The position numbers and the translations under genes are program-made. Below, piece after piece: positions 1 through 5,690 of a stretch of 64,000 nucleotides of DNA. The stretch's first letter is position 1, and every line of letters begins with the position of its first letter. The notes under the pieces were generated by a model. That model had not been told where the DNA came from. It saw only the letters and a program-made list of their open reading frames with translations, and made no database searches. The DNA comes from Paracoccaceae bacterium (GTDB lineage Bacteria > Pseudomonadota > Alphaproteobacteria > Rhodobacterales > Rhodobacteraceae): assembly GCA_028150825.1 (NCBI GenBank), contig JAOGIM010000007.1, positions 1 to 64,000 on the forward strand. Direction: 5' to 3'.

Positions 1-328
1 TGTTACAAACGAACAAGAAAATGCACTGTAGACAAATGACTGAAACTCCACAAAAATTTTATCACACAAAGCCTAATCTCGTTACGGCATATAGGCATTA
101 AAGATCTGTACTTGCAAAGTCAATTTTTGGCGTGGTAATCATATCGTGAAGTATAAAATTATACAACTGGACTAGACCTTTAGAATGTCAATTCTTAAAC
201 TTTAAACTGAACAATTAGGAATGAGAAAATCTGATTTGCATCAGAAAAATTTAAAAATCTATCAAAAACAGTTTTAGATAACTTGTGACAATACTTTTAT
301 TAAAAATTATACAGAAGAATTCAAAGAA
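1..328. other. AT-rich non-coding leader
   Basis: I see no convincing gene here. The stretch is strongly AT-rich with frequent stops in all frames. It precedes the first gene of the phospho-decoration island and probably holds its promoter, but no clear promoter hexamers could be chosen by eye. Confidence 0.5.
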
Positions 329-1090
329 ATGTCTAAGAAAATACTTTTGATGACAGATATACACATAACAAACCATGACATAAATATAATTGGGTTGAAT
401 CCCGCACTCAGATTCAGACACTGTTTGGAACATGCCAGTTCTTATCACGCCGATGCTAGTCATCTTTTCATAATGGGAGATCTAACCCATAATGGATCAT
501 ACGATGAATATAAAATATTGGAGAGGCTACTAAAAAATCAACCATTTCCGGTAACTCTAATGTTAGGAAATCACGATAATAGATCTGCATTTTCAGCAGT
601 TTTTTCAAATCGTGCAGAACCCTTCCAACATGGATCGCAAAATTTTGGAAAGACAAAAATTATTCATCTGGATACACTGGATGACAGTGTTAAAAACAGA
701 GGCAGTGGTTTGATGTGCATGCAACGGATGCATTGGTTTGAGTATAATCTGGGACTTGGAGATGGACCTATTCTCGTGTTGTCACATCATCATATGTTAA
801 ACTCTGGATTCGATGGCTTAGATAAAATTCGTTTATTAAATGGCAACAAAATCGCTGGAATTATTGCAGCTTCAGGACGTTGTAAAATGGTTATAAATGG
901 ACACATTCACAGAACAATATTTTCATCTTACAAGGGTGTGCCGCATGCCACATTAAAGAGTACATGTCACCAAACACCACTTTTATTAAGTTCAAACGAC
1001 CCAGAGTTGGCAGTCGACGAACCAGGAGGCTATGGTGTCTTGTTGTTAGATGGAGACACTCCGATATTACACCACGTTGACTTTAATTGA
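329..1090 (+). CDS. Calcineurin-like metallophosphoesterase (Icc/GpdQ type)
   Basis: This 253-residue protein has the complete binuclear metallophosphoesterase signature: D10-x-H12, GD at 50-51, GNHDN at 80-84, three consecutive histidines at 153-155 and GHIH at 191-194. The best family match is the class III cyclic-nucleotide or glycerophosphodiester phosphodiesterase group, of normal length. No signal peptide is visible, so it is probably cytoplasmic. It is the first of three co-oriented genes, followed after 47 bases by a cytidylyltransferase and then a LicD-type transferase. That context suggests it acts on a phosphodiester such as a CDP-alcohol, a glycerophosphodiester or a glycan substituent rather than on cAMP, but this is inference. 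Codon use is visibly more AT-rich than in the core genes further along, which suggests acquisition by transfer. Confidence 0.85.
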   Translation: MSKKILLMTDIHITNHDINIIGLNPALRFRHCLEHASSYHADASHLFIMGDLTHNGSYDEYKILERLLKNQPFPVTLMLGNHDNRSAFSAVFSNRAEPFQHGSQNFGKTKIIHLDTLDDSVKNRGSGLMCMQRMHWFEYNLGLGDGPILVLSHHHMLNSGFDGLDKIRLLNGNKIAGIIAASGRCKMVINGHIHRTIFSSYKGVPHATLKSTCHQTPLLLSSNDPELAVDEPGGYGVLLLDGDTPILHHVDFN

Positions 1091-1137
1091 GAAGTCTGCG
1101 CCAGCAATTTAGAATGTGAAACAGGAAATTCGTTGAT

Positions 1138-1509
1138 ATGAAAAAACGCGTTTTAGTTGATATGTCGTTAACTATCTTACACCATGGACATATTCGTTTA
1201 TTACAGAAGGCGGCAACTCTGGGAGAAGTAATAATAGCGCTTACAAGTGATGAAGAGATCTATAAATCAAAAGGATTTCGCTCCGCACTTCCGTTTTCAC
1301 ACAGAAAAGAAATAGCACTTTCGATTAGATACGTTAGTGAAGTAATCGAAAGTAAATGGTTAATTGATGATTCATTTATGGACTTACACAATATAGATCT
1401 ACTGGTGCATGGAGACGACAATGCAAATCCAGTACCTTCGAACAAATTAGTTATATTTCCACGGACAGAGGGTATAAGTAGTTCGATTTTAAGAAACTCA
1501 ATCGATTAA
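1138..1509 (+). CDS. TagD-like cytidylyltransferase (glycerol-3-phosphate type)
   Basis: The product is a 123-residue nucleotidyltransferase of the size of Bacillus TagD. The HxGH nucleotide-binding motif is at residues 15-18 (HHGH). An HRK motif follows in mid-protein, HGDD comes later, and the RTEGISSS motif near the end is the cytidylyltransferase RTxGIST signature. Known family members join CTP to glycerol-3-phosphate or a related phospho-alcohol, giving CDP-glycerol or a similar donor. An AGGAA ribosome site lies 10 bases before the ATG. The usual TFD before the HxGH motif reads SLT here, so the alcohol may not be glycerol. It lies between a metallophosphoesterase and a LicD-type transferase, which could use the CDP-activated product indirectly. 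Confidence 0.85.
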   Translation: MKKRVLVDMSLTILHHGHIRLLQKAATLGEVIIALTSDEEIYKSKGFRSALPFSHRKEIALSIRYVSEVIESKWLIDDSFMDLHNIDLLVHGDDNANPVPSNKLVIFPRTEGISSSILRNSID

Positions 1510-1697
1510 ACTCTTTTAGAGGAGTATACTTCCAAAGGTAACGGTACATTAACAATCAAAACGACTAGTAAATTTATTAATACAATCACACCAATAGAAT
1601 GCAGACCGAAAACTTAAAAGATTTTTCTCACATGATTATTATATCGAAATATACTTGCAGTAAGAAACTATACTTCGCACTTAAAAATTAGGAATTC

Positions 1698-2345
1698 ATG
1701 GTAGTCGAAATGGTAAAAAAGAATGTATGGATCAAACGAATATCTACCAAGTCGTTAAAATCACAGTTTAATGCGATAATCGATTTATTAAATAAAAAAA
1801 ATACACCATACTATGTGGATTGTGGGGCCCTACTGGGAATCGTACGTGACGGAGATCTATTACCGTGGGACAATGATACTGACTTGGCAATAAATTCTGA
1901 AGATTTGGGAATATTAGAGTCGGCTGTAAAAGATATAAAAAACTTAGGATGGCGTTGTGAGTTTGAAAGATTTTCTGAAGAATGTGATTTTGCTACAACG
2001 AAAGATATCCGTGTTTTGAAGATTTCAGATACTTGGCTTGGATTTTTTAGAGGCCCTACAAGAATGGACATTTTTTTACTCTACCCAATGGACAACTATC
2101 GGTGTTGGAGTGCAGCAAAGAGGTACATGCGTGTCGACCGTAAATATTTTGATGGGCATGAAATTATTAAATGGAACGGACGCAAACTTCGTGCGCCAAA
2201 ACACTACAGAGATTACCTTACACAAAAATATGGTGATTGGTCAGTCACAGTAAAAAATTGGAGTTGTAAAGGAGAACTAACAATTTTTGATGCTGAAAAA
2301 ACAGTTGTTGGGCCAGCACTAGTAGATCAATCACACAAAACATAA
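1698..2345 (+). CDS. LicD family phosphotransferase
   Basis: This 215-residue protein contains the LicD/fukutin nucleotidyltransferase-fold core: a tyrosine-rich run into CGALLGIVRDG near residues 37-53, followed by PWDNDTDLAI with its metal-binding aspartates. Family members transfer phosphocholine, or in some systems another phospho-alcohol, from a CDP carrier onto a cell-surface sugar. The C-terminal part has a YLTQKYGDW motif that is typical at the end of the LicD domain. The first ATG is preceded by AGGA four bases upstream; a second ATG at 1710 lacks a site at good distance. No membrane segment is visible. Together with the preceding cytidylyltransferase it forms the CDP-alcohol donor/transferase pair seen in surface phospho-decoration loci. 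Substrate unknown. Confidence 0.85.
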   Translation: MVVEMVKKNVWIKRISTKSLKSQFNAIIDLLNKKNTPYYVDCGALLGIVRDGDLLPWDNDTDLAINSEDLGILESAVKDIKNLGWRCEFERFSEECDFATTKDIRVLKISDTWLGFFRGPTRMDIFLLYPMDNYRCWSAAKRYMRVDRKYFDGHEIIKWNGRKLRAPKHYRDYLTQKYGDWSVTVKNWSCKGELTIFDAEKTVVGPALVDQSHKT

Positions 2346-2431
2346 AAGTATGTAAAAATTTCTTTTCTCAAGATATGATTTTCGGTGAATAATGATCCAC
2401 AAGTATTACTTTTAAAAATTTATTTGCATTA

Positions 2432-3520
2432 TTAAACTGAATCTAACAAATCCTTTGTGAAGTTGTCCGCAACCAATTGATCACTTGGTTTTTGTCGTTT
2501 TTCTCCTTTCCAACCAGTAGTCACGTTTACACAATGGATGAAAGAAAACTCTTTCGCGAAAAAACGCCTTTCGAAAAATAAATTCTCAATAGAGTGAGTG
2601 GTCCAAGAGTGATTCCCAAGTTTTCCTTTAGGATCAATGCACCACTTTTTAGGACTATTCTTGTTGCCAAATTTATAAAAACTACTGTTATGAGAAATTT
2701 TCTGTTTAGACCCAAAGTTATGATACCGATTCTTTCCCAAAAATCGCAAAAATCCATATTTAGATTTAATTGTTGCGTCAAATATATTTATTTTACTTGG
2801 CAAAACTAATTCATCAATATCACAACACAGTACTGCCCTCGCATTCTTTAAGAACCGGAATTTTAAGATATTATACGCAGACGTTTGTAAGAATAATTCC
2901 CTATTGTGATAAGGTCTCCCCAGACTCGCAGGACCAAAGTTAAAGGGTAAATTCAGTATGACTAACGTGCATAACCCACTGTTCTTTAGAACACTCTGAA
3001 CATCTTCATTAGCATATTTCGACGAGTTATTATCGAGAATAAAAAGACACTGCAAACTATGAAACTTCACGTGCCATTTTGCAAAATATTCTATCCATTC
3101 AAGATTATTATTTTTATTAATAACCATTGCGCAATTCTTATTGTCAGTAATAGAGAAATTAGTTTTGCTTAATTCTGAGGACAAACCCAAACTAATTGAT
3201 TCAAATTTAATTTTTTTTACAAAGGATGATGTCTTTATTGTTAGGATATCAGTCCTACGAAATCGTTTTATTTGAAATTTATCAACTCTCGTATCATCCA
3301 AAAAGAAAGACCCATTTTTTAATTCTTTTTCAAAGTTTCTAAGTTTCGGACATACTAATCTTATGTGATTATCATCTTGTATTGCATCATACCAAAAGGT
3401 CTTAGAATCAAAATTTTCCAAATAATATGGAGTCATTTTATTGGGTGGACATAATGCGTTTCGTGAAATACCGCCGTCCTTAGTGACACCACATTCTGTT
3501 TTATAAAAAAAACTGTCCAT
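2432..3520 (-). CDS. GT92/GT2-like glycosyltransferase
   Basis: The 362-residue product resembles the family-92 / Glyco_tranf_2_4 glycosyltransferases of marine alphaproteobacteria. A central NLEWIEYFAKWH segment around residues 138-150 precedes the conserved LFILDNNSS stretch, and CCDIDELV at 232-239 supplies a DxDE metal-binding motif (D234, D236). No transmembrane segment is obvious. The gene faces the three preceding genes and ends 86 bases from the LicD gene, so it is convergent with them rather than in their transcript. The likely role is adding a sugar to a surface polysaccharide, perhaps the acceptor decorated by the LicD protein. Composition is as AT-rich as its neighbours. Confidence 0.75.
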   Translation of the reverse strand: MDSFFYKTECGVTKDGGISRNALCPPNKMTPYYLENFDSKTFWYDAIQDDNHIRLVCPKLRNFEKELKNGSFFLDDTRVDKFQIKRFRRTDILTIKTSSFVKKIKFESISLGLSSELSKTNFSITDNKNCAMVINKNNNLEWIEYFAKWHVKFHSLQCLFILDNNSSKYANEDVQSVLKNSGLCTLVILNLPFNFGPASLGRPYHNRELFLQTSAYNILKFRFLKNARAVLCCDIDELVLPSKINIFDATIKSKYGFLRFLGKNRYHNFGSKQKISHNSSFYKFGNKNSPKKWCIDPKGKLGNHSWTTHSIENLFFERRFFAKEFSFIHCVNVTTGWKGEKRQKPSDQLVADNFTKDLLDSV

Positions 3521-4122
3521 AGACTTTCCAATTGTTAAATGCCGACTGTATGTACTTCACATTCCAGTTTGTCAAAATGGAATATTGGGTTTTAGAATTA
3601 GATGAAAAGGTTAAATGATCTGATTGGATTGAATAATTTTCCAACAATATAAACAGTCTGACAGATGTGATTGAAGAAAAGGTAAGAAAAACTTTCTTGG
3701 ATTTATAAACATATCTTGTCAGAAAGTTGATCTGTAACAATGGAAAACCGAATTAGATTTCAAATATCCTTATGTAAAGCACAAAATAGAATGGAATGGT
3801 CCCAATAACAAATCAGAGGGATATAAATCAGTAAACGGACAAATTAGTCATTTAGTTAATACGGCATTATTACAGCCAAAAGGTAAGAAAACTGAGATCG
3901 AGATAGTATCAGAATAGGTAACATCTGCAAAAAAGGTATAACCGCACATACATCCTTCACTCTGTTATAGTCGACTAAAATTAAAATAATATAATTTGAT
4001 GCAGTGCATTTTCATTCAGTCACTGTAGGTTGAATTATTGTAGTCGTATTTTTTGCATTGAAAGTTACATCGCCCCTATGTTTATACGATTAAGCAACAG
4101 TGTCCTTTGGGTACAGGAATAT
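3521..4122. other. Intergenic stretch at the edge of the AT-rich island
   Basis: Apart from the possible remnant at 3741-3917, nothing recognisable is present. A minus-strand open frame at 3501-3740 overlaps the glycosyltransferase start and lacks any family resemblance. Base composition shifts from very AT-rich to the window's usual level around 4.1 kb, where the core chromosome appears to begin. Confidence 0.4.
3741..3917 (+). pseudogene. Possible 3' remnant of an unknown gene
   Basis: One frame stays open for 58 codons ending in TAG at 3915-3917, with a coding-like composition (segments such as KIEWNGPNN and GQISHLVNTALL). There is an in-frame TAA immediately upstream (about 3735) and no start codon in the open part, so at best this is the tail of a degraded gene. 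I do not recognise the family. The other possibility is chance openness in AT-rich DNA. Confidence 0.2.
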
Positions 4123-4611
4123 TTATAGCGGATAGACATTAATCTCAGGCAACCCTATCAAAGAAACACCCATCAAACGCATAGCTGATAGCGAAACTTG
4201 GCTACCGCTTCCTTGGGTCTCAAGTGGCATCAACGTAACGTTAACTGATTTTCCAGTTTCTTTAGATACGATCCGTCCTAGTTGCCTTTTTTCTACCAAA
4301 GGCGTTTTAAGCCAAAATCCCGTTTCCGCCGGATTGCCCAAACTTGCGATTGTTGACCCTAGAGATTTGGATGAAGTAAGCGTGACTTGCTGCGATGCTG
4401 CGAGGCGTTGTTGAAGTGTGGCTACATCAAGTGCCGAAGCCAGTTTGGGTGTACCAGTGCCCGAAAGCCATTTCTTATCCGCTTGGCTTGGTGCGGAAAA
4501 AAGCTGATTAAGGGGGTGCTCTCTTGGAAGATTTGTGCAAGAGACAAGTAAGAGACCCACGCAGAAACCAGCCCAAAACAGTTTAAAGATAGAATACAAA
4601 TTTAGGTTCAT
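4123..4611 (-). CDS. Small lipoprotein, function unknown
   Basis: The product has 162 residues with a hydrophobic leader (about residues 8-24) ending in a lipobox LLVSC, with the cysteine at about residue 25, so it should be a lipid-anchored periplasmic or outer-membrane protein. The rest is low in cysteine and rich in Ser, Thr and Leu, with no enzymatic motif. Similar short lipoproteins next to moaA in Roseobacters are often labelled as D-galactarate dehydratase/altronate hydrolase-like, which the sequence does not support. It is transcribed divergently from moaA, with 71 bases between the starts. Confidence 0.75.
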   Translation of the reverse strand: MNLNLYSIFKLFWAGFCVGLLLVSCTNLPREHPLNQLFSAPSQADKKWLSGTGTPKLASALDVATLQQRLAASQQVTLTSSKSLGSTIASLGNPAETGFWLKTPLVEKRQLGRIVSKETGKSVNVTLMPLETQGSGSQVSLSAMRLMGVSLIGLPEINVYPL

Positions 4612-4682
4612 CCATTGCGCCTTTGAATGCTTAATTTAAATGCACACTTGCGAACTTTGCAACTAAGTCCTAGCTTAAGCTT

Positions 4683-5690
4683 ATGATAGTCCCTTTGAAA
4701 GACCCCTTTCAGCGTGCAATTACCTACTTGCGGGTATCCGTCACCGATAGGTGTGACTTTCGCTGTGTCTATTGTATGGCCGAGAATATGAAATTCCTAC
4801 CCAAGAAAGAGCTTTTGACATTGGAAGAGCTTGATCGCATGTGTTCGATCTTTGTCCAGCTGGGGGTTCAAAAACTTCGAATTACGGGTGGCGAGCCGCT
4901 TGTACGGCGAAATATTATGAGCTTTTTCCATGGTATGTCGCGCCATTTAGAAAGTGGCGCCTTGAACGAAATGACCCTCACAACGAACGGATCACAGCTT
5001 GAGCGGTTCGCAGATGATCTTTATGCTGCTGGTGTAAGGCGGGTGAACATTTCCCTTGATACACTGGATGAGCAAAAATTTTCCCGCGTGACGCGATGGG
5101 GCCGTCTGCCCCAAGTTTTGCGCGGTATCGACGCCGCCCAACGTGCCGGATTGCGGGTCAAAATCAATACTGTAGCGCTTAAAGGGTTCAATGAAGAAGA
5201 GCTTTTGACAATAACTCAGTGGTGCGCAAGCCGGGATATGGACCTCACTTGGATCGAAGTCATGCCCATGGGAGATCTTGGCAAAGAAGACCGTGTTGGA
5301 CAATATTGGGCACTCAGCGAAATGCGTGATGAACTGCGCAAACATTACCAGCTGACCGACCTGACGGAACGCACTGGCGGACCAGCCCGCTACGTTCGTC
5401 TGGAAGAGACAGGTCAAAAGATTGGGTTTATCACGCCTCTCACTCATAACTTTTGTGAAAGTTGCAACCGCGTGCGGCTGACTTGCACGGGCGAGCTTTA
5501 CATGTGTCTGGGACAAGAGGATATGGCAGATTTGCGCATCCCCTTGCGGGATTATCCAGAGACGGATAAGCCTCTGCAAATGGCAATTCGAAATGCCATT
5601 CTTCACAAACCTAAAGGCCACGACTTTGACTATTCACGTAAGAGTATTTCTGGCCAGATGACTCGTCACATGAGCCATACCGGCGGCTGA
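4683..5690 (+). CDS. moaA: GTP 3',8-cyclase MoaA
   Basis: MoaA performs the first step of molybdenum cofactor synthesis, converting GTP to 3',8-cyclo-7,8-dihydro-GTP. The radical SAM CxxxCxxC motif is at C24, C28 and C31. The C-terminal second cluster motif CxxCNRVRLT...C is present (CESCNRV, then MCLG), and the protein ends in the GG tail needed for catalysis. At 335 residues it is full length. It ends in TGA, which is useful evidence that TGA is a normal stop in this genome. No other moa gene is adjacent in this window. Confidence 0.97.

Follow-up and report, generated by a model that had tools for sequence, protein, structure and literature searches.

A stand-alone HxGH-family cytidylyltransferase and a LicD transferase in a Paracoccaceae contig: a probable module for phosphonate decoration of a surface glycan

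The cytidylyltransferase and its described relatives

PntC (Rice et al. 2019, PMC6697681) provides cytidine monophosphate (CMP)-activated 2-aminoethylphosphonate (AEP) for surface tailoring, and its genes lie near those of phosphoenolpyruvate (PEP) mutase and LicD-like transferases. The paper shows AEP activation by two characterised PntC enzymes, both of the MobA-like family PF12804. It also reports a fused PF01467 domain in 23.6% of PEP mutases and LicD-like transferases in the neighbourhoods. Here we analysed the first 64,000 bases (the window) of contig C78 (85,459 bases) from a draft genome of a Paracoccaceae bacterium, in which the gene of a stand-alone cytidylyltransferase of 123 amino acids (aa) is followed by a LicD-family transferase gene (Table 1). 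Judged from sequence comparisons, this pair (1138–2345) is probably a surface-decoration module for a phosphonate, in which AEP would be imported, activated with CMP, and moved by LicD to a glycan. The window enzyme differs from PntC in belonging to PF01467 (HxGH fold) and not to PF12804, and several genomes carrying members of its clade had no PEP mutase above the cut-off. A Pfam search of the window enzyme at E up to 1 gave only PF01467 and a sub-cut-off match to PF22057; PF12804 was absent.

The cytidylyltransferase domain of Fom1 (PDB 5x3d) also belongs to PF01467, concerns a phosphonate, and carries M-S-x-[DT] before the HxGH motif (GMSADLIHPGH vs. DMSLTILHHGH in the window enzyme); however, it is fused to PEP mutase, acts on hydroxyethylphosphonate, and falls into a separate tree group. 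The window enzyme has no PEP mutase fusion, lies outside the Fom1 group, and is not of the Fom1 type. TagD/TarD (PDB 1coz) shares the fold and the HxGH and RTEGIS motifs, whereas the window enzyme has DMSxT for GTFD, belongs to another clade, and has other neighbours. The residue D of TagD and Fom1 is replaced by T (T12) in the window enzyme. The lic phosphocholine pathway (LicA–D) follows the same logic of importer, cytidylyltransferase, and LicD, and all three are adjacent in Sutterella locus L078. A phosphonate pathway should differ from it in requiring no kinase; here, moreover, the presumed substrate is AEP, and the importer genes of the genome under study lie on a different contig.

The sequence-only reading of this DNA had described an intact TagD-like HxGH/RTEGISSS enzyme and had taken SLT in place of TFD as a sign of a substrate other than glycerol-3-phosphate. 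Both motifs were present (HHGH and RTEGISSS), PF01467 scored 46.5 bits (cut-off 21), and the score, motifs, and fold place the enzyme in the PF01467 HxGH superfamily. The point about the substrate agrees with the tree, which comprised 55 rows including the window enzyme; the near copy L079, the frameshifted L101, and the fragment L102 were omitted. The window enzyme fell into one group of 26 rows (support 100/98), outside the single group of 14 TagD rows (98/94); the 14 rows of PEP-mutase-fused domains and Fom1 formed a separate group (100/97). All 14 TagD-type rows had GTFD or GTYD, and the pattern [YF]GT[FY]D..H.GH was found in 14/14 TagD rows and 0/40 others; their GDDW.GKFD-like segment is replaced by HGxDNxN in the window enzyme. 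The pattern D[ML]S.[TS]..HHGH occurred in 26/26 clade rows and 0/28 others, a count partly built in by the scan words KRVLVDMS and T[IL]LHHGHI.

A single-sequence scan of genome contigs found nothing, and the clade scan was made with a two-sequence alignment, A1, without phosphonate genes as a criterion. It yielded 28 loci, in which L085 is the query contig of genome G172, L101 is G090, and L079 is a near copy of L078. The hosts include Pelagibacteraceae, SAR86, Sutterella, Desulfovibrionaceae, Shewanella marina, Campylobacterales, Thiotrichaceae, Balneolaceae, Desulfobacterales, and the spirochaete Haliotispira prima. Members of the clade were thus far found in Alpha-, Beta-, and Gammaproteobacteria, Campylobacterota, desulfobacteria, Balneolota, and a spirochaete. 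Among 197 other genomes of the family, 15 matched the cytidylyltransferase, and only G172 (65% identity) and the frameshifted G090 were close; the next match had 35%. The G090 gene (L045 2247–2637) had no phosphonate or LicD match in the 15 kb covered and reads as a decaying copy in the same family.

Clade neighbourhoods, fusions, and AEP importers

Neighbouring genes were sought by tblastn up to 8 kb on each side, less at contig ends. Matches to PEP mutase, phosphonopyruvate decarboxylase, and/or AEP transaminase were found at 15/28 clade loci (L077, L080, L082, L083, L085, L087, L088, L089, L090, L091, L092, L096, L097, L098, and L100). The PEP mutase match was weak in L089 and L090 (28–29% over about 150 residues), which were assigned by their fused transaminase. 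AEP importer genes were present at three further loci (L078, L079, and L084), and phosphonate genes or an importer thus occurred at 18/28. None of 11 TagD-type control loci, five of them short, had these phosphonate genes or the importer; L046 matched the importer ATPase only, a widespread family. Ten controls lay in the TagD group of the tree and L034 was unplaced; L052 was omitted, its match being a PEP-mutase-fused domain. Without L085, the comparison was 17/27 clade loci vs. 0/11 controls (Fisher p 0.0003) and gave p 0.007 against only the six controls of at least 12 kb, with kinship of loci uncorrected in both tests.

The nearest relative among the family genomes searched, the G172 enzyme, is encoded 12 bases after an operon of PEP mutase, phosphonopyruvate decarboxylase, and AEP transaminase genes. 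The PEP mutase has an N-terminal cytidylyltransferase domain, scored 390 bits with TIGR02320 (cut-off 319.55), and carries EDKTGLKRNS, which fits the motif EDKXXXXXNS given in PMC6697681. The decarboxylase scored 404 bits with TIGR03297 (cut-off 312.5); the third protein, a class-V aminotransferase akin to AEP transaminases, reached 59 bits, far under the cut-off of 360.8.

The clade domain was fused to a class-V aminotransferase in six loci (L083, L087, L089, L090, L091, and L100). It is N-terminal to the aminotransferase in L083 (Aminotran_5, 90.6 bits), L089, L090, and L091 (cut by the contig end); the L087 fusion was judged from a length equal to that of L083 and a weak AEP-transaminase match. 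In L100 (6687–9422, Candidatus Haliotispira prima), a 911-aa protein is a triple fusion of decarboxylase, cytidylyltransferase, and transaminase, which would unite three successive steps to CMP-AEP in one chain. Since the domain is fused to an AEP-making enzyme, it would most simply use AEP.

In Shewanella marina (L084), the cytidylyltransferase gene is followed by substrate-binding, ATPase, and permease genes with PhnS2, PhnT2, and PhnU2 as their best NCBIfam models; PhnS2 was over its cut-off (415.4 bits, cut-off 392.75), and PhnT2 (418.4 of 457.7) and PhnU2 (586.7 of 593.25) were under theirs. In Sutterella (L078), a LicD gene (PF04991, 103.6 bits) is followed after 12 bases by the clade cytidylyltransferase gene and then by three AEP-importer genes, 34–45% identical to those of Shewanella, all on one strand. 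None of the 13 clade genomes without a local PEP mutase had one over the cut-off, and five had sub-cut-off matches of 112–130 bits. The importer binding protein was over the cut-off in one of these genomes (Shewanella); G680, G681, and G682 gave 298–305 bits and G683 gave 193.

The genome under study is a draft of 2.34 Mb in 110 contigs (62.72% complete), in which no PEP mutase exceeded the cut-off. Its contig C45 encodes an importer binding protein (402.7 bits, cut-off 392.75), a score above a cut-off that none of 14 control genomes exceeded, with adjoining genes for the ATPase (57% over 240 aa) and the permease (40% over 504 aa). The binding protein likewise passed the cut-off in G200 and G202, two of the six genus mates. 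A PEP mutase candidate on C45 was rejected (124 bits vs. 319.55); sub-cut-off matches occurred in 6/14 control genomes as well, and the C45 match is taken as another member of the PEP mutase superfamily. Genes for a PTP-like phosphatase and a DAO-family oxidoreductase adjoin the C45 importer (L136 13825–15783) and may serve AEP catabolism.

Several further gene arrangements were seen around clade members. In L076 (3387–7879), L081 (8514–12729), and L095 (6099–10357), from Desulfovibrionaceae and Sutterellaceae, the clade enzyme accompanies two other proteins. One has 400–470 aa (weak Glyphos_transf match in L076, none to Pfam in L081); the other, about 1000 aa long, begins with a YidC-like part and ends with a weak match to the sulfatase family (L076 and L081; L095 by eye only). 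This set could be another phosphonate transfer system. In L042 (13602–14915) and L097 (2045–3343), a PEP-mutase-fused cytidylyltransferase domain with a degraded HxGH motif (HHGI and NDGH) has an intact stand-alone clade enzyme nearby, a possible division of labour. In Pelagibacteraceae, a CDP-alcohol phosphatidyltransferase gene after the clade enzyme (L077 7866–8627) suggests a phosphonolipid branch in SAR11, and adenosine-phosphosulfate-kinase-like and B12-binding radical S-adenosylmethionine genes after the clade enzyme (L092 8363–10401) point to a possible further-modified phosphonate.

Proposed pathway and competing explanations

In the proposed pathway, AEP would enter through the AEP-type ATP-binding cassette importer encoded on C45. 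Import is the most likely source because the importer is present on another contig and no PEP mutase exceeded the cut-off in the contigs of this genome. The cytidylyltransferase would use cytidine triphosphate to join AEP to CMP, giving CMP-AEP, and LicD would transfer the aminoethylphosphonyl group from CMP-AEP onto a sugar of a surface glycan. We infer AEP as the substrate from sequence, and likewise CMP-AEP as the donor, a glycan as the acceptor, and import as the source. Other enzymes are known to activate AEP and hydroxyethylphosphonate with CMP (PMC6697681), and PMC8316502 describes characterised AEP importers and AEP import by marine heterotrophs. A published description of a stand-alone PF01467 AEP cytidylyltransferase clade or of an import-fed route was not found in a search mostly without subscription journals; the words "cytidyl" and "nucleotidyl" are absent from the main text of PMC8931226. 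The neighbourhood counts of PMC6697681 may include members of this clade.

The LicD protein (215 aa) scored 49.8 bits with PF04991 (cut-off 22.6) and belongs to the LicD family; an intact LicD core, separated by 188 bases from the cytidylyltransferase, had been noted from the sequence, and both observations hold, the 188 bases lying between the cytidylyltransferase stop and the LicD start. LicD homologues adjoin clade cytidylyltransferases at five of the 28 loci (L078, L079, L083, L087, and L093); identity to the window LicD is 30% for the L083 protein and 28% for the L087 protein. Relatives were found in 12/295 family genomes and 11/385 class genomes (the genome under study counted in both), mostly as short matches, with no clear donor signal among them beyond the pair in G019 discussed below. 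Donors may have been exchanged among LicD transferases, which makes the LicD step, and with it the donor assigned to the window LicD, less certain than the rest of the proposal.

Bacteria without PEP mutase may more generally take up AEP from the environment, activate it with CMP by a dedicated HxGH-fold synthase, and use LicD to display it on surface glycans; we advance this form of scavenging tentatively, at a little short of an even chance. If it is true, cells that bear phosphonates would escape surveys based on counts of PEP mutase. Given its best curated match, the enzyme is apt to be labelled a glycerol-3-phosphate cytidylyltransferase; if the clade, here found at 28 loci, consists of AEP cytidylyltransferases, such labels would be wrong, and phosphonate decoration could occur without phosphonate synthesis. 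The same reading of the clade would tie the AEP imported by marine heterotrophs (PMC8316502) to cell-surface chemistry. For testing it, the clade offers a signature in the sequence and, in Sutterella and Shewanella, compact gene sets.

Several observations weigh against the phosphonate proposal. Neither phosphonate genes nor an importer was found near 10 of the 28 clade loci (L076, L081, L086, L093, L094, L095, L099, L101, L102, and L103), of which one is a contig-end fragment, one is frameshifted, and two come from contigs no longer than about 7 kb. The window itself holds no phosphonate genes, and the importer lies on C45, where the ATPase and permease genes are on one strand and the binding-protein gene on the other; this importer may serve AEP catabolism. 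The clade motif was in part selected by the scan. Foldseek placed the structure model of the cytidylyltransferase (predicted local distance difference test score, pLDDT, 94.9) level with TagD, choline-phosphate, and Fom1 cytidylyltransferases (E about 3e-9), and the fold does not discriminate between them. The best curated model of the enzyme is TIGR01518 (TagD), and TagD 1coz is its first PDB sequence match. Furthermore, the nearest LicD relative that was found (42%, G019) has a GTFD-type enzyme and a Glyphos_transf gene as its partners, an arrangement that points to glycerol phosphate.

The last two observations are what a TagD-type glycerol-3-phosphate enzyme, with LicD moving glycerol phosphate, would have in its favour. 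This is quite unlikely: TIGR01518 gave 66 bits, below its cut-off of 165.4, the enzyme lies outside the TagD clade and lacks both GTFD and the GDDW.GKFD-like segment, and phosphonate neighbourhoods occur at most clade loci. Slightly better placed, yet still improbable, are AEP-like phosphate esters, for example phosphoethanolamine or phosphocholine. Phosphocholine is the classical cargo of LicD enzymes, the window enzyme has human ethanolamine-phosphate cytidylyltransferase as its second PDB sequence match, and the fold matches choline- and ethanolamine-phosphate enzymes no worse than others. The six class-V aminotransferase fusions and the co-location with PEP mutase and AEP importers argue for AEP instead, and no choline or ethanolamine kinase was found among the neighbour proteins scanned (many neighbours unscanned).

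The sequence-only reading had joined the pair and the upstream phosphoesterase into one unit that builds, transfers, and possibly edits a phosphodiester substituent. The phosphoesterase is on the same strand, about 48 bases before the cytidylyltransferase, with a GC content at third codon positions (GC3) alike at 0.28–0.32. Its solved-structure matches include phosphohydrolases (2zo9/2dxl, 55 bits), which we take to be GpdQ; GpdQ-type enzymes are diesterases. Nevertheless, no phosphoesterase homologue was found in the 28 clade loci (flanks up to 8 kb), and neither of its two nearest relatives has cytidylyltransferase or LicD genes close by within the reach of their contigs. A three-gene unit is therefore very improbable. 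What survives of that reading is a pair predicted to activate a phosphorus-bearing group and transfer it to a surface glycan, the likely substrate being a phosphonate (AEP) and not a phospho-alcohol; the pair recurs elsewhere, the triplet was not seen again, and a dedicated phosphoesterase finds no support. There is also a small chance that the AT-rich stretch represents an island that is transient or in decay, and that this species lacks a functioning donor pathway for the pair. The contig ends at this point, the G090 clade member is frameshifted, and a serine recombinase adjoins the same locus in G198; the open reading frames (ORFs) and motifs are intact, however, and the genome has AEP-importer genes.

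Other genes and setting of the locus

Table 1. Coordinates of the annotated features in the window.
Feature	Position	Strand	Basis or remark
HxGH-family cytidylyltransferase, phosphonate-associated clade; proposed CTP:2-aminoethylphosphonate cytidylyltransferase	1138..1509	+	PF01467, clade tree, neighbourhoods
Segment D8-H18, DMSLTILHHGH, clade form of the HxGH motif	1159..1191	+	TagD instead has GTFD..HxGH
RTEGISSS, second conserved cytidylyltransferase motif	1462..1485	+	seen in sequence
LicD-family transferase; proposed mover of the phosphonyl group from CMP-AEP to glycan	1698..2345	+	PF04991
Calcineurin-type metallophosphoesterase, SpdA-like; probably outside the system	329..1090	+	PF00149; NF050112 below cut-off
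GT-A-like glycosyltransferase	2432..3520	-	structure model, homologues
AT-rich stretch	1..4122		contig start to syntenic lipoprotein gene; GC by gene 0.325–0.379 vs. 0.468

The phosphoesterase (253 aa) belongs to PF00149 (44.6 bits, cut-off 21.5) and has the DxH, GDxxH, GNHD, HHH, and HIH blocks. SpdA, a 2',3'-cyclic-nucleotide phosphodiesterase (PMC4222275), is its best curated match (NF050112, 222 bits), although the score is below the cut-off of 400 and the neighbourhood is different, which leaves the protein outside SpdA proper. Homologues (E 0.001) were found in 95/198 family genomes, the one under study included. At the six phosphoesterase-centred loci covered, matches to cytidylyltransferase, LicD, PEP mutase, decarboxylase, and AEP transaminase were all lacking. 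Neither of the closest relatives, in G136 (63%) and G045 (58%), had a cytidylyltransferase or LicD gene near; the G136 contig ends 34 bases past the match, and the G045 gene lies 5 bases from a 1,146-aa gene resembling pyruvate carboxylase (named by eye). Position is what speaks for a role in the system, and the phosphoesterase is probably a bystander brought with the same AT-rich stretch.

The opposite-strand glycosyltransferase (362 aa) had no Pfam match itself; five of six homologues scanned had weak PF13704 matches, all under the cut-off, and the protein is not assigned to that family. A model from seven sequences (mean pLDDT 75.8) had mostly GT-A enzymes among its best PDB matches, with GalS1 at the top (8d3t_A, E 3.3e-10). 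Homologues occurred in 67/295 family genomes, the one under study included, and the gene is taken as an ordinary glycan gene of the locus.

All four ORFs were found where the sequence-only reading had placed them, with motifs intact, and its claim that they lie in AT-rich DNA was borne out. GC content was 0.302–0.355 in the four 1-kb windows of 1–4000, the lowest value among the other 60 being 0.403. By gene it was 0.38 for the phosphoesterase, 0.36 for the cytidylyltransferase, 0.37 for LicD, and 0.33 for the glycosyltransferase, vs. 0.468 for 5691–64000; GC3 was 0.28–0.32 in the four genes and 0.52 in moaA. Base 1 of the window is the first base of the contig, which ends 328 bases upstream of the phosphoesterase start, so the sequence preceding this gene is lost.

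The lipoprotein gene (4123–4611) and the beginning of moaA have counterparts in a genus mate, with 75% DNA identity to G202 over 4123–4698. In the genus mate G198, the far side of the lipoprotein gene holds a gene for a DegT aminotransferase, followed by a homologue of the window glycosyltransferase (37–42% identity, split over two ORFs, orientation reversed). On this far side, the G202 contig stops less than 2 kb from its match and the G200 contig within a few bases of its match. The AT-rich stretch thus meets the chromosome at a site that holds glycan genes in a genus mate too, which makes a chimeric contig join less likely.

A phage or plasmid origin of the pair was considered and rejected. 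The cytidylyltransferase matched 10 phage records and 38 plasmid records by tblastn, all below 60% identity; the phage matches, where annotated, were nucleotidyl- or heptose-type enzymes, and 15 listed plasmid matches were annotated tagD. LicD had zero tblastn matches among phage records and among plasmid records, and two scans of viral contigs found no relatives. A possible serine-recombinase remnant at 3684–3881, matching the C-terminus of the G198 recombinase, was too weak for use (E 0.007, in-frame stop). In G198 itself (L133 4090–7944), the serine recombinase gene adjoins the glycosyltransferase gene.

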